Below, in pieces: positions 37,718 through 47,661 of a stretch of 64,000 nt of DNA (its first letter is position 1; each line of letters begins with the position of its first letter). The stretch is from the NCBI GenBank assembly GCA_026713105.1, contig JAPOPC010000007.1, positions 1 through 64,000 of the forward strand, given 5' to 3'. The DNA comes from Acidimicrobiaceae bacterium (GTDB lineage Bacteria > Actinomycetota > Acidimicrobiia > Acidimicrobiales > Poriferisodalaceae). The position numbers were made by a program, and so were the translations under genes. The notes under the pieces are model-generated. The model saw nothing but the letters and a program-made list of their open reading frames with translations. It made no database searches and was not told the origin of the DNA.

Positions 37718-39256
37718 TCAGGTGCCAGATTTGTCAGGAATTTCGGGGAATTCGATCAGCTCGGCGGGCACCGCACCGGCTCGCAGCACAACGGGCTCGC
37801 TGCCCGTGACATCCACCACCGTCGATGCGATCCCACCCAGCGCCGTGCCGTCGATGACGCCCTCGATCCCAGGCCGGATGGCGAGGTCTTTCGCGGCCGA
37901 CGTCGCCTGGGCGGGTGTCTCGGCGCCGTGGCGGTTGGCGCTGGTGCCCGTGACTGGTCCGACCTCGTCGATGAGCCAGCGCAGCCAGCCCAGCGCCGGC
38001 GCCCGGACCCCCAGCGTCTGGCGGCCGTGCAGCGGATCGGGACCGCCCCGGCGCCGAGCGACCAGCGTGAGGCCGCCAGGCCAATGACGCTCAGCCAGCG
38101 CCCTTGCGGCCGGGCTCAGCACCACCAGCTCCTCGGCTTGGGCCAGTCCGGACACCAAGATGGGCATGGGCTCGCTGCGGGGGCGCTCCTTCGCTTCGCA
38201 GACGCGGGCGACCGCATCGGTGTCTGCGTAGCGAGCCATGATCCCGCACAGCGTGTCGGTGGGCGCCACGACGAACTCGCTGTCTCGCAAGTGATCGACC
38301 GCCCGGTCGATGACGCGGGCATGGGGTTCGCCTTGCGGACGAACCGCAACGAGCACCCGGTCGAGGCCCGCGAGATCCGGCTCGATGCGAACTCCCTCGT
38401 AGCCGCGGGCGCTCGCCATCGCCTCGACCACTGGGCCCTGATCCGATCCGATTTCCAGCACAAGCAGCCCGCCGGGCGCCAGCCAGGCTCGGGCATCACG
38501 CACGATCGTGCGCGCCGCGCTGAGACCCTCGGGACCCGCGTAGAGGGCCACACTCGGCTCCCACCGGTCGATCTCGGCGGGGAGAACCTCGCCGTCGGCC
38601 ACATATGGCGGGTTCGCCACGATCGCATCGAGTCGCTCGCGTAGCGGCGCCACTTCACCTCCACCGAGGCCGGGAACGGGCGCTCCCTCGAGTGCGTCGA
38701 ACCAATCTCCCTGATGCAGCGAGACCCGGCTTGCAGCACTCCCCAGGCCAGCCAGGTTGGCTCCCGCGAGTGCCAGCGCATCGGCCGAACGATCGGTGGC
38801 GTACACGCGGGCCTGGGGAACTTCGTGAGCAATCGACAGCGCAATCGCTCCGCAGCCCGTGCCGAGATCGGCCACGCGCACCTCGGTGATGCTTCGGCGT
38901 CGCACCGTGCGGTTGAGCCAGTCGATGGCAGTGCCAGCAACCAGCTCGGTCTCGGGGCGGGGGATGAGCGCCCGCTGATCGACTGCGAGGTCGAGCCTGC
39001 GAAAGCCCCAGCTGCCCAGCACGTACTGCAACGGCTCGCCCGCCAACCGGCGGGCGGCCATGGCGTCGGCGTGGGCGACCATGCGCGCAGTCATCGGCGT
39101 ATGCGGCGCCAGGGCGACCTCGGCGGCGCTGGCACCGCTGGCCTCCGCCGCTATGCGGCGCGCGCTCACCTCGGGTTCGGGCACACCGCCGGCGCCGAAC
39201 TGCTCGCGCAGCCCCCGGTACAGGTCGCCCAGGGTCAACCCGTCCTTGCCAGCCAT
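37718..39256 (-). CDS. fused peptide chain release factor methyltransferase (PrmC) and threonylcarbamoyl-AMP synthase (TsaC/Sua5)
   Basis: A 512-residue frame with two enzymes. Residues 1-305 are PrmC (HemK), which methylates the GGQ glutamine of release factors: [11 protein letters not shown] (130-140) binds SAM and NPPYV (215-219) is the catalytic motif. Residues 312-512 are a TsaC/YrdC domain (APTDTLCGI 331-339, [11 protein letters not shown] 355-365) that makes threonylcarbamoyl-AMP for the t6A37 tRNA modification. The ATG at 39256 follows the prfA stop by 34 bases, placing the methyltransferase next to its substrate. A frame extending 85 codons further into prfA is low-complexity and rejected. 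Confidence 0.94.
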
Positions 39257-39290
39257 GGCCGGATCCGGTCCCCCTCGCCCGGCAGCCGCG

Positions 39291-40397
<1,107 letters not shown>

Positions 40398-40430: not shown

Positions 40431-41507
40431 TCAGGAGTTCGAGCCGGTAATGGCGCTCCACCGATCGTCAACCTCGACGATCTGCGCAGGCCTGCGAAGC
40501 CTGGCCGACATGTTCTTGATGACGTCGTGAGCATCGCGTCGAGGCAGCGCAACCACCAGTTCGGCGTCAGGATCGAGGAATAACCGGGCATCGGCCGCGA
40601 ACGGCACCACATTCAGATCGATGCCGACGCACACCACCACCACCAGGCGGCGACCGTTGGGTGTCAGGCCGTAGGCCACAGCAGGCGCCGGTTCCTTCGG
40701 ACCTCCGCGAGGCAGCGGCGACGACGACGCTCGCAGGCGGCCTGCGCCGACGAGATCCGGACGCCGTATCAAGAGCGCGCGAAGCCAGCGGGCTGCCGAC
40801 AAGCGATTGAGCGGGTGCGGCGAAGCGCCGGGCGAGCGGTGCACCCGTACCACCTCGGCAACTCGACGTATGGCCTCGGGCGTCGGCTCATCTGCGTGCA
40901 GCAACGAAAATGCCTCTCGATCGTGGGCACCGACACCTACCTCGATCTGCCACTGCGTCGAGGCCTCGCCTGCATCGCCAGAATCGTCGTCGTCGTTGCC
41001 GGCTGCGGTGGCACCACCCCGAGCCGCGGCAACGATGCGGGCCACTTCGAGACCCTCCACCTCACCCGTGATCACGCCGTGCTCGACGGTGACCTCGACG
41101 CCGGCAGCACCGAGCAGCGCTACCAGCTCGGGCACACGCGGCGGTGGAGGCTCGGTCGGCCGCGCCGCCGCCTCGGCAACGGTGGCATGGGCTCCTTCGA
41201 TCTGCCACACGATGGGTGGCGTCTCGAAGCACGCTGCCCGCCGGGCGAGTACGCCGCTGTGGTGGGTGGCGAAGACATGCACGCCGTCGCATCCAGTGCG
41301 CACCGCCAGCGCCAGCGCGCCGCCAAGGGCTCGCTCAGCGCGTTCTTGCGCGAGGCACACGACGGTGGTTTCGGTGCCCGTGACGACGGCCAGAGCGCCG
41401 TCATCGGTTCCCGAAACCTCACCCAACTCAAGGCTGAGCGCATCGCGGGTCAGGGCCCGCAGCTTTGCCGCGTGAAGCGCCCGGATGCGATCAGCGTCGA
41501 GCGCCAT
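40431..41507 (-). CDS. conserved hypothetical protein between rpmE2 and prfA
   Basis: A 358-residue soluble protein I cannot assign. The N-terminal 110 residues are alpha/beta (GALAVVTGTETTVVCLAQE, CDGVHVFATHHSGVLARRA), the middle carries an acidic linker (NDDDDSGDAGE, about 170-180), and the C-terminal third is Arg-rich with strands (GRRLVVVVCVGIDLNVVPF, AELVVALPRRDAHDVIKNM). No catalytic motif stands out. It lies 33 bases before prfA in a block of translation genes, so a link to ribosomes or RNA is possible but not shown. Confidence 0.7.
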   Translation of the reverse strand: MALDADRIRALHAAKLRALTRDALSLELGEVSGTDDGALAVVTGTETTVVCLAQERAERALGGALALAVRTGCDGVHVFATHHSGVLARRAACFETPPIVWQIEGAHATVAEAAARPTEPPPPRVPELVALLGAAGVEVTVEHGVITGEVEGLEVARIVAAARGGATAAGNDDDDSGDAGEASTQWQIEVGVGAHDREAFSLLHADEPTPEAIRRVAEVVRVHRSPGASPHPLNRLSAARWLRALLIRRPDLVGAGRLRASSSPLPRGGPKEPAPAVAYGLTPNGRRLVVVVCVGIDLNVVPFAADARLFLDPDAELVVALPRRDAHDVIKNMSARLRRPAQIVEVDDRWSAITGSNS

Positions 41508-41604: not shown

Positions 41605-41862
41605 TCAGCTCCGCCGCTTCCGCTGGCCGTAACGGCGCTCGAAGCGCTCCACGCGGCCCGCCGTGTCGACGATCTTCATCTGGCCGGTGAAGAAGGGGTG
41701 GCTGGCGCTGGACAGCTCGACGTTGGCCAGCGGATACGTGTTGCCATCCGTCCACTCGATCGTGTCGTTCGTCTCGACCGTGGACTGCGTGAGGAAAGCA
41801 AAGTCGGCGCTCGCGTCCCGGAAGACCACTGGCCGGTAGTTCGGATGGATGTCGCTCTTCAT
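41605..41862 (-). CDS. rpmE2: 50S ribosomal protein L31, type B
   Basis: An 85-residue L31 with the start [16 protein letters not shown] and [19 protein letters not shown]. It lacks the CxxC zinc pairs of type A L31, so it is the zinc-independent form, which in many bacteria is used when zinc is scarce. A CAGGGA ribosome site lies 7 bases before the ATG. A frame 20 codons longer is rejected. Placed between rho and the hypothetical gene before prfA. Confidence 0.95.
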
Positions 41863-41969: not shown

Positions 41970-43412
41970 TCATCGATGCTCGCCGAGACTGAAGCTGCGG
42001 TCGCTGTCCAGAGAGACCTCGCCAGCCTCGGGGTCGGCGAGGTCGGGCACGCCCTCGCCGAGTGCGATCTCGAGATTCGCTGCCTCGCGCAGCCGAGCGG
42101 CCACGAGATCATCGAGTTGGGTGCCCGTGGACACACGCGCCGTGGCCACCATCGTGATGGAGCCAGCGTCTTCCAGGTTGCGGGCGCCGCCGAAAAATCT
42201 CAGTGTCGAGGTGATGGCTGCGCCCACGGCGTCGGTCGGCTGATGTCGCCCGTTGCCGCCGGCCGCGTAGGCACGTGCGAGCCGCGTCAAACCGTCGAAG
42301 AGGATGACCACGTCATCGCCAGCTTCGGCCATGCGCTTGGTGCGCTCCAACGTGAGCTCGGCCACGGCGAGGTGCTCTTCGGGCGGCCGGTCGAATGTCG
42401 ATGCCAAGACCTCGCCGGACATCTCGAGCCGGCGGGTCATCTCGGTCACGTCCTCGGGCCGCTCGGAGACGAGCAGGACTATCAGGTGGATGTCCGGATG
42501 CTGGTCGCCGATCGCCGCAGCCATGGCCGCGATCAGCGGGGACGCCGAGCGCGTCCCGCTCGTGGTCAGCAGTCCGCGGGAACCCAATCCGATCGGCGCA
42601 AGGCGGTCGATGGCGGCGAGGGCTCTGGCGCTTCGCTCGACGCCCAGCGGCAACGCGTCGGTGGGCAGCACCGGCGTGAGGTCATCAAACAGCGGTCGCT
42701 CGGGCTGCTCGGGCGGGGGCTCGCCGTTGAGAGTGTCGAGGCGCAGCAGCGCGGGATTGCGCTCACTGCGCGCAGCCGGGCGGCTGACGCCGGTGATCCG
42801 GTCGCCGCGGCGCAGGTCGTACTGGCGCACCTGCCGGGCGGCGACGTAGACATCATCCGCCGACGGCAGCGGTCCATTGGTGCGAAGAAAGCCGTAGCCC
42901 TCGTCGCGCAGGTCGAGCAGGCCATCGCAATGGACGGTCTCGCCGACGATCTGCGCGTCGTCGCGCCCGCGGCCACGGCGACGGCTGCGACGGTTGCCTT
43001 CTTCGGCCACCAGGACATCCGAATCCGAAGTTTCCGAGCGGGAAGCGCCCTGTTGCTCTCGCGCTGCGGACCCGTCTTCGGCTGCAGCTCCCCCGTCGCC
43101 TGCCGTGACCGGCTGCTTGGCTGTGGCATCGGCTCCGGCTGCGGGTCCGGAGTCGGTCGGTGGCGACGGCGTGCGGGTGCGCTTGGTGACCGCTGGGGTC
43201 TCCGAAGGGGTCTGTGACGCCGTCTCGGCTGCAGCGGCGCCTTGACCATCTTCCCCGTCGGTACTAGTGGCGCCTTCGGGGGCCAAGATGGCGCTGATGA
43301 TGGTGTTCTTGCGCGCCCGGGGTGCTACCTCGACGCCCAGCGCCGTGGCGATCTGCAGCAGCTCATCTCGCTCCTTGGATTCGAGCAATGCACGATCCGG
43401 CATGTCCGACAT
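41970..43412 (-). CDS. rho: Rho termination factor with degenerate ATPase
   Basis: A 480-residue Rho at the normal locus before rpmE and prfA. Rho_N helices (5-45) and the RNA-binding cold-shock-like domain are good: DEGYGFLR (170-177) and VYVAARQVRQYDLRRGD (188-204). A low-complexity acidic then Arg-rich insert fills 46-150. The motor is damaged: the Walker A site, normally APPKAGKT, reads TSGTRSAS (284-291) with no P-loop Lys or Thr. Walker B (VVILFDGLTRLARAY, 368-382), the ERPEDVTEM strand and the Q-loop (FFGGARNLEDAGS) remain. The protein stops at 480, without the RRxFPAIDxxxSGTRREELL segment that carries the arginine finger. The shortened end is not explained by a frameshift that I can find. 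An AGAGG ribosome site precedes the ATG. Confidence 0.88.
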   Translation of the reverse strand: MSDMPDRALLESKERDELLQIATALGVEVAPRARKNTIISAILAPEGATSTDGEDGQGAAAAETASQTPSETPAVTKRTRTPSPPTDSGPAAGADATAKQPVTAGDGGAAAEDGSAAREQQGASRSETSDSDVLVAEEGNRRSRRRGRGRDDAQIVGETVHCDGLLDLRDEGYGFLRTNGPLPSADDVYVAARQVRQYDLRRGDRITGVSRPAARSERNPALLRLDTLNGEPPPEQPERPLFDDLTPVLPTDALPLGVERSARALAAIDRLAPIGLGSRGLLTTSGTRSASPLIAAMAAAIGDQHPDIHLIVLLVSERPEDVTEMTRRLEMSGEVLASTFDRPPEEHLAVAELTLERTKRMAEAGDDVVILFDGLTRLARAYAAGGNGRHQPTDAVGAAITSTLRFFGGARNLEDAGSITMVATARVSTGTQLDDLVAARLREAANLEIALGEGVPDLADPEAGEVSLDSDRSFSLGEHR

Positions 43413-43634: not shown

Positions 43635-44819
43635 TCAGAAGGCCCGTCCCCAGCACACCGCCGCACCATCCAATCGGATTGCGCAGTTGCGGTAATACCT
43701 TGAATCAACGGCGACGAATGCTCCGCCCGGCACGTCGACCCGGCCGTCCCAGCCACTGCCCCAGCACAGCAACTCGCCGCCCCTACTCAGCGCGCATGAA
43801 TGCTGGGCCCCGGCGCTGACGTCAACGAACTCGCCGGCGGGGGCGTCCGCTTGACCGGCCGAGTTGTCGCCCCAGCACTCGATTGACCCAGCGAGGTGTA
43901 GGCCGCAAGCATGGAACACGCCAATCGCTATCTGGGAGAACGAACCCACTGGATCATCCGATCCGATGTACTGAGCGTCTCCCCAGCATGCGGCGGATCT
44001 GTCTGTCCGGATCGCGCACGCGATGAAGCCATCAACATCCAGGTAGATCTCTTCAAAGGGTCCCCTCGGAGGCACAGCCCGCGGCAGCGGACTGTCGCTG
44101 AGGTTCTCGGCCCAGCAGAGGGCCGACCCGTTCACTTCGAGCGCGCAGATCGTCCCTCTGCCGGCCACAACCGCCGTGAACTCGTGCGAGGCGATTCTGT
44201 GCTGCTCAGGATTCGCTTCACTCTCTGAGCACAAGATCGCGCCGTCGTGGCGCAGCGCACAGAGCAAGCCGAAGTCCAGTGCGACCGACGTATACGGTCC
44301 GTGCTCGTCGCCCACATCGAGGTAGTCGCTAAACCCCCAGCACGACAGCCGTCCGTCCACGCCGAGTCCGCAGGCGGTGTCGTGGCCAGCGTCGATCAGC
44401 GCGAACCGTGCATCTTGCGGAGTCGCATCCGTTGCGTGACCCCCACCCCAGCACTTGACACGTCCATCACTGAGCAGACCGCATGCGAACGCCTCGCCGA
44501 CGTCGATGTCGACAAATGGTCCTTCTACCTGCGCGGTCAACTCGGCCTCGACAACAGTCACCTCGGGATCAGGAGGTGTCGTCCCAGGGTCGATCGTCGG
44601 CGCGGCACTCTCCGTCGGCACCTCGGTACTCACCGTGACGGAGGTCTCGGATCCTCCAGTCTCCAAGGCAGGAACCGCATTTCTGGCAGGTTCCGCGACC
44701 TCGCCGTCTGATCCACCGGCGACGATCGCTGTCACCAGCAATGCGATCAGCGCAAGGAGCACCGCAAGCTCCGCGACGGCAATCGACCGGCTGCGCTTCG
44801 GGGCGTGGTCGAAGCGCAC
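43635..44819 (-). CDS. secreted, membrane-anchored RCC1-repeat protein
   Basis: A 394-residue protein with an N-terminal membrane anchor (about 15-35, AELAVLLALIALLVTAIVAG), a Thr/Pro/Glu linker (50-95) and eight RCC1-like repeats, each with the pattern C(A/G)L..DG...CWG (for example CGLLSDGRVKCWG, CALSRGGELLCWG). The paired cysteines in each repeat probably form disulfides outside the cell. RCC1 propellers bind proteins or surfaces; the role is unknown. GTG start 8 bases after the thrC stop, so it is probably in the hom-thrC transcript. It occupies the place where thrB often lies in this gene order. Confidence 0.85.
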   Translation of the reverse strand: MRFDHAPKRSRSIAVAELAVLLALIALLVTAIVAGGSDGEVAEPARNAVPALETGGSETSVTVSTEVPTESAAPTIDPGTTPPDPEVTVVEAELTAQVEGPFVDIDVGEAFACGLLSDGRVKCWGGGHATDATPQDARFALIDAGHDTACGLGVDGRLSCWGFSDYLDVGDEHGPYTSVALDFGLLCALRHDGAILCSESEANPEQHRIASHEFTAVVAGRGTICALEVNGSALCWAENLSDSPLPRAVPPRGPFEEIYLDVDGFIACAIRTDRSAACWGDAQYIGSDDPVGSFSQIAIGVFHACGLHLAGSIECWGDNSAGQADAPAGEFVDVSAGAQHSCALSRGGELLCWGSGWDGRVDVPGGAFVAVDSRYYRNCAIRLDGAAVCWGRAF

Positions 44820-44826
44820 CTCACTC

Positions 44827-46227
44827 TCAACGGGTGCAGCGGGCGGTGACGAAGTCGCGGACGGTGGCGAGGTCGTTGGGCAGGGTGGTGAGGTGTTCGG
44901 GCCGGTCTGCGAGTGCTGCGAGCGCTGGCGGCAGCTCGGGTTGGCGGCCGGTGGCTTCGAGGACGGCGTCGCCGAACTTCGCGGGATGGGCCGTTGACAT
45001 CACGGCCATGGGGGTGCTCCACCCGCCGGCGGGGGCGTCGCGGCGCGCGACCGCGAGAGCGACCGCGGTGTGAGGGTCGATGAGCCGCTCGTCGGATTCG
45101 TTCACTGCGGCGATGGTGGCAGCCACCTCGGCTTCGCCGGCAGCGCCGGCATCGAAGCCAGCGCGCAGGCCGGTCTGCACATCGGGAGCCAGTCTCAGGG
45201 ATTTCTCGGTCCGAAATTGGGCCATGTCGGCAGCGAGCGCGGCACCCCGACGACCGCCCAATTCGAAGAGCAGGCGCTCGAAGTTGCTCGACACCTGGAT
45301 GTCCATCGCGGGGCTGGTTGAAGGCCGCACCTCGCTGATGGACATCTCGCCGCTGCGGTGGGTGCGGGTCAGGATGTCGTTGTGGTTGGTGGCGACCACC
45401 AGCCGGTCAATCGGCACACCCATGCGGCGAGCGACGTCGCCGGCAAGCACATTGCCGAAGTTGCCGGTGGGGACGCAGAACGACACGGCCCGTTCAGGCG
45501 CCCCCAGCTTCGCTGCTGTAGTCGCGTAGTACACGGTCTGCGCAGCAACCCTGGCCCAGTTGATGCTGTTCACTGCGCCCAGCCGCATCCGCTCACGGAA
45601 CGGCCGGTCGGCAAACAGTGACTTCACCAGATCCTGGCAATCGTCGAACGTGCCGTCGATGGCCACGTTATGGATATTCGTACTGTCCACCGTGGTCATC
45701 TGGCATCGCTGGATCTCGGTGACCCTGCCGGCCGGGTGCAGCATGACCAACTCAATGCCCGCCCGGTCCCGACATGCTTCGATGGCGGCCGATCCGGTGT
45801 CTCCCGAGGTGGCTCCTACGACGGTCATGAAGCTGCCGCGTCGGGTCAGCTCATGCTCGAAGAGCCTGCCCAGCAGCTGCAGAGCGACATCCTTGAACGA
45901 CAGCGTGGGTCCCCAGAACAGCTCCACCAGGTGCTCGCCGGATTTCAGCCGGCTGGTCGGCACCACCTCTGCATGGTCGAACGTGGCGTAGGCGTCCTCG
46001 GTCAGCGCGGCCAGGTCGTCGCTGCTGAGCGATGGCGCCACAAACGGGGCGAGCACCCGTGTGGCCACCTCGTGATATTCCAGCCCCGCGAAGTCGTCCA
46101 GGTCGCTCGGGCTGATCGTCGGCAGCCCGTCGGGCACATACAGCCCGCCGTCGGAGGCGAGTCCCTCCAGCAGCACGTCGCCGAATTCCAGGATCAGGGC
46201 GTCGCCCCGGGTGCTTACGTAGCGCAT
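44827..46227 (-). CDS. thrC: threonine synthase
   Basis: A 466-residue PLP enzyme of the longer (fold II, E. coli/yeast-like) type that turns O-phosphohomoserine into threonine. The PLP Lys is in GPTLSFKDVALQ, with GATSGDTGSAA as the phosphate-binding loop and the N-terminal MRYVSTRGDA typical of the class. An AAGGAG ribosome site lies just before the ATG. Follows hom by 25 bases. Confidence 0.96.
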   Translation of the reverse strand: MRYVSTRGDALILEFGDVLLEGLASDGGLYVPDGLPTISPSDLDDFAGLEYHEVATRVLAPFVAPSLSSDDLAALTEDAYATFDHAEVVPTSRLKSGEHLVELFWGPTLSFKDVALQLLGRLFEHELTRRGSFMTVVGATSGDTGSAAIEACRDRAGIELVMLHPAGRVTEIQRCQMTTVDSTNIHNVAIDGTFDDCQDLVKSLFADRPFRERMRLGAVNSINWARVAAQTVYYATTAAKLGAPERAVSFCVPTGNFGNVLAGDVARRMGVPIDRLVVATNHNDILTRTHRSGEMSISEVRPSTSPAMDIQVSSNFERLLFELGGRRGAALAADMAQFRTEKSLRLAPDVQTGLRAGFDAGAAGEAEVAATIAAVNESDERLIDPHTAVALAVARRDAPAGGWSTPMAVMSTAHPAKFGDAVLEATGRQPELPPALAALADRPEHLTTLPNDLATVRDFVTARCTR

Positions 46228-46251: not shown

Positions 46252-47595
46252 CTATTCGCCAATCACGCGGATCGCGTTGCCGATTCGTCGCACAGCGTCA
46301 AGCTCTCGTACATCTCGCAGCGTTGAGGCCACATCGGCCTCGCGAGCTCGGTGAGTGATGAACTCCAGGTGAGCGATGTCGTCGGCTGTCCCACCTCGAG
46401 TGGTCTGCTCGACCGAGCGGATCGACACCCCGTGCTCGCCGAAGACGCCAGCCACTGAAGCAAGCACGCCCGGCTTGTCGGTGACGTCGAACTGCAGGTG
46501 GTATGCGGTGTACGTCTCATCGATGGGCCGCAGGCGCGCCGCTCTCAGCGGGCCGAAGCCGTCGCACACTCCCCGGCGCAGATTCTGCGACACGGTGATG
46601 AGGTCGCCCAGCATGGCGCTGGCGGTCGGGAAGCCGCCTGCGCCCCTCCCGTACAGCATCAGGTCGTCGACGGCCTCCCCCTCGAGGAACACCGCGTTGA
46701 AAGCGTCGCGCACTGACGCCAACGGGTGGTCGTTCGGCACCATCGCCGGGTGCACCCGCACGGCAATCTCGCCGTTCTGGCGTTCGGCCACAGCAAGCAG
46801 CTTGATCACGTGGTCCATCCGGGCAGCCGCCGCGATATCGCCGGTGCCGATGCTGCTGATGCCCTCTTGGTGGACGTCGCCGGCCACGACCTTGGCCCCG
46901 AACGCGGTCATCGCCAGGATCGCTGCCTTGGCGCCCGCGTCGAAGCCCTCCACATCGGCGGTCGGATCGGCCTCGGCGTAGCCCAGGCGCTGCGCCTCGC
47001 CGAGAACGTCGGCGTAGTCGGCCCCGTCCTCGGTCATGCGGGTGAGGATGTAGTTCGTCGTTCCGTTCACGATGCCCATCACACGCGTGATGCGTTCGCC
47101 GATGAGCGAGTTGCGCAGCACGCCGATGAGGGGGATCCCGCCTGCAACAGCCGCCTCGAACGCCAAGTCCACGCCGTTGGTGCTCGCCACGGCGAACAGC
47201 TCCTCGCCGACGTTGGCGATGAGCTCCTTGTTGGCGGTCACGACAGGCTTGCCGGCGCCGAGCGCTGCCGCGACCAGGTGGCGGGCCGGCTCGATCCCGC
47301 CCATCGCCTCGACCACGACATCCACATCGTCGGCCACAACCAGCGACTCGCTGTCGCGGGTCAGGACACCTTCGGCCAGCTCCACCGTTCGCTCGGCGCT
47401 GAGATTGCGAACGGCGACTCGGGTGACTTCGAAGTCCAGCGCGGTGCGTCCCGCCAAGTGAGCCCTGTCGCGGTTCAGGATGGCGACGAGCGCGGCACCG
47501 ACATTGCCGCAACCCAAGATGCCGACGCGCAGCGGCCGCGGCTCGTCGGCTGCCTCGGCAGGGGCGTCAACGGTCTCGGCAGCAGCGTCGGGCAC
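46252..47595 (-). CDS. hom: homoserine dehydrogenase
   Basis: A 447-residue Hom with an NAD(P)-binding N-terminus (VGILGCGNVGAALV), the catalytic core (VNGTTNYILTRM, LGYAEADPTADVEGFDAGAKAAI) and a C-terminal ACT domain (FDVTDKPGVLASVAGVFGEHGVSI) that usually binds threonine for feedback control. The GTG at 47595 is chosen over one 13 codons upstream because TACCGT ends exactly 7 bases before it. First gene of the hom-thrC unit. Confidence 0.95.
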   Translation of the reverse strand: MPDAAAETVDAPAEAADEPRPLRVGILGCGNVGAALVAILNRDRAHLAGRTALDFEVTRVAVRNLSAERTVELAEGVLTRDSESLVVADDVDVVVEAMGGIEPARHLVAAALGAGKPVVTANKELIANVGEELFAVASTNGVDLAFEAAVAGGIPLIGVLRNSLIGERITRVMGIVNGTTNYILTRMTEDGADYADVLGEAQRLGYAEADPTADVEGFDAGAKAAILAMTAFGAKVVAGDVHQEGISSIGTGDIAAAARMDHVIKLLAVAERQNGEIAVRVHPAMVPNDHPLASVRDAFNAVFLEGEAVDDLMLYGRGAGGFPTASAMLGDLITVSQNLRRGVCDGFGPLRAARLRPIDETYTAYHLQFDVTDKPGVLASVAGVFGEHGVSIRSVEQTTRGGTADDIAHLEFITHRAREADVASTLRDVRELDAVRRIGNAIRVIGE

Positions 47596-47602
47596 GGCCG
47601 AA

Positions 47603-47608
47603 ACGGTA
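47603..47608 (-). promoter_or_regulatory. -10 box of hom (leaderless)
   Basis: TACCGT on the minus strand, 7 bases before the chosen GTG of hom. Confidence 0.5.
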
Positions 47609-47661
47609 CCGCCAGCGCACCTGCGCTCCCGCACGGATTTCGGCCGACTCCCCAGAGGCCT

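Follow-up and report, generated by a model that had tools for sequence, protein, structure and literature searches.

Apparent repeated loss of the ATP motor from a single-copy Rho that keeps its RNA-binding face

Whether the transcription termination factor Rho acts by pulling on the RNA or by first binding and inactivating the polymerase is an old dispute, and the canonical motifs are reportedly present in most Rho sequences, according to the conservation survey of D'Heygere and colleagues (2013). Here we describe a rho gene whose product lacks the central motif of the ATP motor. It lies in a stretch of 64,000 nucleotides, hereafter the window, from an Acidimicrobiaceae bacterium (assembly GCA_026713105.1, contig JAPOPC010000007.1, positions 1 to 64,000 of the forward strand). 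OB sites on the rim of the canonical Rho ring bind YC dinucleotides, and translocation is run by the Walker motifs, the catalytic Glu, the Arg valve, the Arg finger and the Q and R loops (PMC4499133, PMC8828861, PMC11018626). The Rho of Mycobacterium tuberculosis was once proposed to be motor-independent and was later shown to need ATP hydrolysis (PMC4499133), and for this reason actinobacterial ancestry alone does not explain a motor loss. Among the top matches in the open-access literature, which leaves most subscription papers outside its scope, no title or abstract opening reported a natural Rho without a P-loop, and nothing was found there on Rho-dependent termination in connection with Acidimicrobiia or on Rho as a pseudoenzyme in transcription termination. 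The sequences compared below indicate that the motor has been lost repeatedly from a single-copy Rho whose RNA-binding face is preserved, and the window gene is one such case. The gene and its parts are as follows.

41970..43412, minus strand: motor-less Rho of 480 amino acids, the rho orthologue (open reading frame (ORF), Pfam, profile, structure-relative and congener comparisons)
43284..43385, minus strand: Rho_N helices, residues 10-43 (Pfam PF07498 at E 5e-4, under its cut-off; profile match starting at position 6)
42714..42926, minus strand: OB fold with the primary RNA-binding site, residues 163-233, kept (PF07497 at E 1e-21; equivalents of F64, R66, D78, Y80, R87 and E108 present)
42540..42563, minus strand: P-loop remnant TSGTRSAS, residues 284-291, without GK[ST] (motif reading, alignment)
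42444..42473, minus strand: catalytic-Glu and Arg-valve motif LVSERPEDVT, kept (alignment)
42279..42308, minus strand: Walker B VILFDGLTRL with Asp373, kept (alignment)
42111..42143, minus strand: R-loop remnant TARVSTGTQLD, residues 424-434, basic residue lost (alignment)
41973..42059, minus strand: divergent tail (last residues SFSLGEHR) that replaces the canonical C-terminus (alignment; tblastn of the locus)

The protein matches the OB domain PF07497 (Rho_RNA_bind) at 76.6 bits against a cut-off of 27 and the ATP-synt_ab core of Pfam at 41.8 bits, TIGR00767 covers it over profile positions 6-343 of 415 with 279.5 bits (cut-off 509), and PRK09376 reaches 288.9 bits, under its 315-bit cut-off. 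The solved structures closest to it by sequence are Rho, and Rho structures also rank first in Foldseek (E about 1e-25; TM-score only about 0.4, the placement of domains being uncertain), among them PDB 6XAS and 6XAV, which we take to be Rho pre-termination complexes. In the AlphaFold2 model the RecA-like core has mostly block values of 70-88 for the predicted local distance difference test (pLDDT). A first-pass annotation made from the letters alone had recognized the Rho_N helices, the motifs of the RNA site, the unusual P-loop and Walker B. All of these are confirmed (the Rho_N helices by a weak Pfam match), as are the ORF, strand and coordinates. Its statement that the protein ends before the R-loop and the arginine finger holds only in part: the protein is about 30-50 residues shorter than canonical Rho, but the R-loop region is present and only its basic residue is lost. 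The end of the genus's C-terminal tail is placed inconsistently between alignments, so that the finger residue cannot be aligned surely; two alignments put R at the R366 position in nine of 11 species of the genus and H in two, and a third places the window tail differently.

The P-loop reads TSGTRSAS where intact relatives have [AS]PPKAGKT, and neither the Walker A GK[ST] (K184) nor K181 occurs in any of the 11 examined species of the genus, three of which have no basic residue in the loop at all (GTSPAS). The loss is thus lineage-wide, as the first-pass annotation had proposed to check, and is not a chance event, since all 11 species share it. At the position of E. coli K326, the basic R-loop residue, the genus has Q in five species, A in five and D in one, and E211 (the catalytic Glu), R212 (the Arg valve) and the Walker B D265 are kept in 11/11. 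A frameshift or a detached C-terminal segment near rho was considered and rejected after tblastn: five segments of the Rho C-terminus, four from intact Rhos and one from an intermediate, gave no significant match in the window or in ten loci of congeners (best E 0.085 among the best 20 matches). That the whole pattern is an assembly or sequencing artefact is scarcely credible: the assemblies are drafts and the congener records are metagenome-assembled genomes, but eleven species agree, with synonymous-dominated divergence and matching ends. The congeners refute it.

Retention and loss were compared as identity at positions conserved among 30 intact Rhos, for the 11 congeners and for 20 motor-less Rhos from elsewhere in the order. 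The genus values are 0.90 for the OB domain, 0.00 for the P-loop, 0.36 for the R-loop and 0.05 for the C-terminus, and those of the 20 others are 0.92, 0.39, 0.45 and 0.40. All 31 proteins keep F64, R66, D78, Y80, R87, E108 and D265, and E211, invariant in the genus, is lost in 13 of the 20 others. Seven motor-less Rhos found later are intact at two RNA-site stretches, the only parts read, and in more distant rows of the phylum 66% of the OB sites are kept. With the OB sites largely kept while the P-loop, the R-loop, the C-terminus and often E211 are lost, selection maintains RNA capture and the fold and has relaxed on ATP chemistry and on the central channel for RNA.

The loss recurs across the order and further, which goes beyond the first-pass annotation, and sister genera are intermediate. 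In what follows f, g, G and L numbers label families, genera, genomes and loci, f1 being the window's family and g1 its genus. A sample of the order (396 genomes, each at least 85% complete) contains 376 with a Rho match at a threshold of 1e-30; 304 of these exceed the cut-off and 72 fall short of it. The P-loop was read in every one of the 72, and 37 lack GK[ST], representing 17 genera and 10 families (ten genomes in f1, eight in f34, seven in f18, five in f26, two in f20 and one each in f3, f39, f51, f52 and f57) and including the three-contig genome G390; the remaining 35 keep GK[ST], several being contig-end fragments. All 29 over-cut-off Rhos that were read, not all within the 396, have PPKAGK[ST]. 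The replacements are lineage-specific (GAT, GAS, GRE, GRT, GVT, GQT, GTT, DTS, SRA and others). Independently of any tree, eight families hold both over-cut-off and motor-less Rhos; motor-less and GK[ST]-bearing Rhos even occur within one genus in f18 g132, f18 g177 and f57 g66, and in f3 g109 one motor-less member (G297) stands beside over-cut-off siblings with unread P-loops.

A tree of 76 Rhos, 26 of them motor-less, built with the motor columns removed, requires no fewer than 12 changes between the motor-bearing and the motor-less state. It is a quick tree with 26 open branches that omits five of the 11 congeners, nine intermediate f1 rows, 17 phylum rows, the fragments G019, G020, G250 and G285 and the seven later-found motor-less Rhos, and its minimum-change count is blind to direction (gain or loss). 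We read the changes as losses, at least 12 in the order, because regaining a full GKT would be unlikely. A single, horizontally spread clade of motor-less Rhos was rejected (p-AU, the approximately unbiased test, 1.2e-14). Within f1 the states are graded: the Rhos of genera g3, g8 and g9 are intact (PPKAGKT), the 18 that were read in g2, g4, g5, g6 and g7 are intermediate (PP[ED]CGKT, 401-454 bits), with an R-loop of TGWxLDE or near and a diverged C-terminus (L044, L046-L049 and others), and in g1 the P-loop is lost entirely. The same tree places g1 beside the intermediate g2-g7 (support 99, starred), next to the intact genera, and within its 18 f1 rows (support 86, unstarred).

Of 397 genomes sampled across the phylum, some of them from the order, 366 have a Rho match, 334 over the cut-off. 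Seventeen low-scoring Rhos were read from 21 genomes examined, a set chosen for low score or missing match that yields no frequency, and 13 lack GK[ST] (four in f91, four in f93, three in f120, one each in f101 and f113); four f101 Rhos keep GK[ST] but have lost the Q- and R-loops. Rhos of f93, f101 and f120 (L130-L141) are eroded further, with the Q-loop absent and the R-loop reduced, also in single-contig genomes (G695, G519, G704), and the OB domain is still recognized in 4/4 eroded Rhos scanned. Two single-contig genomes, G484 (f81) and G562 (f104), gave no Rho profile match at 1e-30; at 1e-12 G484 has one 69-bit match over profile positions 154-386 and G562 has none. The 20 genomes of the order without a Rho match were considered as a sign that Rho is dispensable there, and this was dropped: in the five that were checked (G050, G028, G393, G322, G320) the best prfA match is only 34-37% identical and was taken for prfB, and because there is only this prfB-like match and no prfA, the rho region is probably missing from these five assemblies.

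The neighbours of rho in the window are the following.

39291..40397, minus strand: prfA (domain match, synteny)
40431..41507, minus strand: ORF of 358 amino acids (orf358) lying between rpmE and prfA, conserved throughout the family, no Pfam match
41605..41862, minus strand: rpmE (L31), downstream neighbour of rho (PF01197; synteny)
43635..44819, minus strand: RCC1-repeat protein gene between rho and thrC (domain match)
44827..46227, minus strand: thrC, upstream neighbour (domain match, synteny)
46252..47634, minus strand: hom, upstream of thrC (domain match, synteny)

The order hom-thrC-rho-rpmE-orf358-prfA is constant in 33 f1 loci as far as the contigs reach, which bears out the earlier statement that the gene sits in the usual rho position, and the hom-thrC / rpmE-prfA setting is also found in one f18 locus as far as its contig reaches. 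A relative of the RCC1-repeat gene stands at the same place in only two congener loci (L034, L038), and one further ORF of the window (37718-39511, minus strand) fuses a PrmC methyltransferase with a Sua5/YciO/YrdC domain. The window genome is 94% complete, and all genomes of the genus are drafts (84-98% complete). A Rho profile search of the window genome returned the rho gene and one weak match (26.7 bits) taken for an F-type ATPase subunit, and the rho gene is the sole match of the OB-domain profile. A full-length rho is present in all 11 species, the ten others being 77-84% identical to the window protein, and a profile search of these draft genomes found no second Rho in any of them, so that the suggested pairing with an intact Rho from another locus is not supported. 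It is very improbable that an intact Rho was missed by the assemblies and that the window gene is a paralogous regulator; the draft state of the genomes and the two Rho matches in some other genomes of the phylum speak for such an arrangement, but each of the 11 congeners has one Rho only, as do one- to three-contig genomes of other motor-less lineages (e.g., G390, G695, G588), and the flanking genes, in matching the conserved rho locus, mark the gene as the ancestral copy. By these comparisons the window gene has been inherited vertically and is the one rho of its genus, and the proposal that the canonical gene itself has become an RNA-binding type of protein without the canonical motor is upheld by locus, OB sites and P-loop in 11/11 congeners.

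Selection was estimated as the ratio of nonsynonymous to synonymous substitution rates (dN/dS; Nei-Gojobori) in 11 congener pairs, for the whole rho gene and by region. The whole gene gives 0.125-0.356. The OB region (0.014-0.094) and the ATPase remnant (0-0.096) fall in the range of the neighbouring housekeeping genes prfA (0.040-0.126, 10 pairs), thrC (0.105-0.204, 9 pairs) and hom (0.069-0.185, 8 pairs); the linker gives 0.24-0.74 and orf358 0.108-0.484 (10 pairs). In 10/10 congeners checked there is no internal stop, and a TGA directly follows the residue matching 480. At the sequence level, purifying selection is seen to keep the primary RNA-binding site and a RecA-fold body that would be used as a scaffold. 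A decaying relic, in which Rho is dispensable and the gene is being lost, is disfavoured by the low domain dN/dS, the matching ends and the missing internal stops, and also by RNA-site residues that are invariant over independent losses and an OB domain that survives in the eroded Rhos. It would nonetheless account for the graded erosion with its PP[ED]CGKT intermediates, for C-termini that are variable and shortened and for a whole-gene dN/dS above that of prfA, and we regard it as unlikely. As a separate observation, in two of the eight motor-less f34 Rhos, both of g148 (L077 of G263 and L228 of G345), the Rho profile match continues past an in-frame TGA, which may be ongoing erosion and is likewise a point on the side of a relic.

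With its P-loop, the basic residue of its R-loop and the C-terminal portion of its motor domain gone, the window Rho most likely, and on strong grounds, cannot run an ATP-driven translocation cycle. We consider it rather probable, though well short of certain, that Rho repeatedly turned into a transcription factor that binds RNA and works independently of ATP. Such a protein, as an open ring or a smaller oligomer, would hold C-rich nascent RNA at its OB sites; without the P-loop lysine and the R-loop base the ring could not close or be driven, and the RNA would still be held. The motor-less Rho might then dock on elongating RNA polymerase, as in pre-termination complexes, and slow, pause or inactivate it, or guard untranslated RNA, without pulling the RNA out, and RNA release would fall to other means. 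We favour an elongation or pausing factor, with an RNA chaperone as a near alternative; the dominant regulator named in the first-pass annotation may apply as well.

A slow motor, comparable to the weak-helicase Rhos, in which an unusual P-loop still serves ATP binding and hydrolysis, with Arg or main-chain contacts standing in for Lys, is also unlikely, if by a hair less so than a relic. That the genus throughout retains the catalytic Glu, the Arg valve and the Walker B Asp would suit it, as would the replacement of the P-loop Lys by Arg in 13/33 other motor-less Rhos (4/20 in the order set, 9/13 in the phylum set), and M. tuberculosis Rho, with Thr in its R-loop, is a poor NTPase and helicase (PMC8828861, PMC4499133). 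That protein, however, retains the P-loop lysine and still requires ATP hydrolysis, the three GTSPAS congeners have no basic loop residue to offer, the R-loop base and the C-terminus are gone as well, and the other motor-less Rhos of the order have frequently given up the catalytic Glu.

Several observations weigh against an ATP-independent factor under selection. The same three kept residues would be odd in a protein that never binds a nucleotide. The whole-gene dN/dS of rho (0.12-0.34) exceeds the prfA value in each of the pairs compared, and single pairs with few sites reach 1.33 in the C-terminal tail and 0.91 in Rho_N. The synonymous distances of rho and the neighbouring genes disagree in some congener pairs, and for this reason the rho region has probably recombined; among G003, G008, G005 and G006, rho and prfA are several-fold apart in the same pair (e.g., 0.86 vs. 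0.22). Confidence in the AlphaFold2 model is low overall (pLDDT 60, pTM 0.49). Nor is there a pattern in the purine content of coding strands, a weak proxy for Rho escape: it is 0.502 in the genus, 0.500 and 0.519 in f1 with intact and intermediate Rho, respectively, and 0.494 and 0.499 in the other intact and the other motor-less sets. Lastly, the NusG KOW domain is normal-looking in 5/5 congeners read, but two single-contig genomes that have no Rho match show it nearly normal too, which makes it uninformative.

How transcription ends in these bacteria is a question raised by the terminators, since no surplus of canonical intrinsic ones was found. In 303 kb of the genus (the window and 12 stretches) a scan for hairpin-U terminators gave two sites against two in shuffles, and on E. 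coli the same scan gave five in 30 kb against 0.3 shuffled; a looser setting barely separates E. coli from shuffles (34 vs. 25.3) and is uninformative. Hairpins at 3' ends of 21 convergent pairs of the genus, the genes being crude ORF picks, have a mean of -0.57 kcal/mol relative to shuffles (coding control +0.15), with -1.35 (9 pairs) and -2.49 (15 pairs) in intact relatives and -8.9 in E. coli (2 pairs only). Compensation by intrinsic terminators was therefore rejected for the sampled stretches of the genus, and hairpin-U terminators are scarce in those of intact relatives too. As to origin, a loss driven by bicyclomycin is thinkable; binding of this compound moves the P-loop lysine of Rho (PMC8828861).

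More broadly, and tentatively, as something we hold possible but would not bet on, Rho may have an ancestral, selectable function without the ATP motor. The motor would have been discarded at least 12 times in the order (37/376) and in further families of the phylum with the RNA face kept, motor-less Rho would be a general RNA-binding transcription factor, and transcription would end without Rho translocation or recognizable hairpin-U terminators. The motor-less Rhos form a natural, evolutionary separation-of-function set and suggest that some of what Rho does pays for itself even without ATP; with their matched intact sisters they are ready-made proteins for probing the termination dispute.

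Set against the known systems, the window protein shares with canonical Rho (E. coli; TIGR00767, PRK09376) its ancestry, the Rho_N, OB and RecA-like layout, the primary-site residues, the catalytic Glu and the Walker B Asp, and differs from it in having no GK[ST], no K181, no basic R-loop residue and a divergent, shorter C-terminus. Like M. tuberculosis Rho it is actinobacterial, carries a hydrophilic insertion in its N-terminal part and lacks a basic residue in the R-loop, whereas that protein has kept the P-loop lysine and its need for ATP hydrolysis. The short-form paralogue Rho2 (NCBIfam NF041509) is likewise derived from Rho and is the third-best NCBIfam match (251.9 bits, the 628-bit cut-off of this paralogue model being unmet), but the window gene is the only Rho found and stands at the rho locus. 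Nearest of all are the intermediate Rhos of g2 and g4-g7, in which, as in g1, K181 is replaced, the R-loop changed and the C-terminus diverged; unlike the g1 Rho, they keep GKT, match the profile to its end and give no sign of total motor loss.
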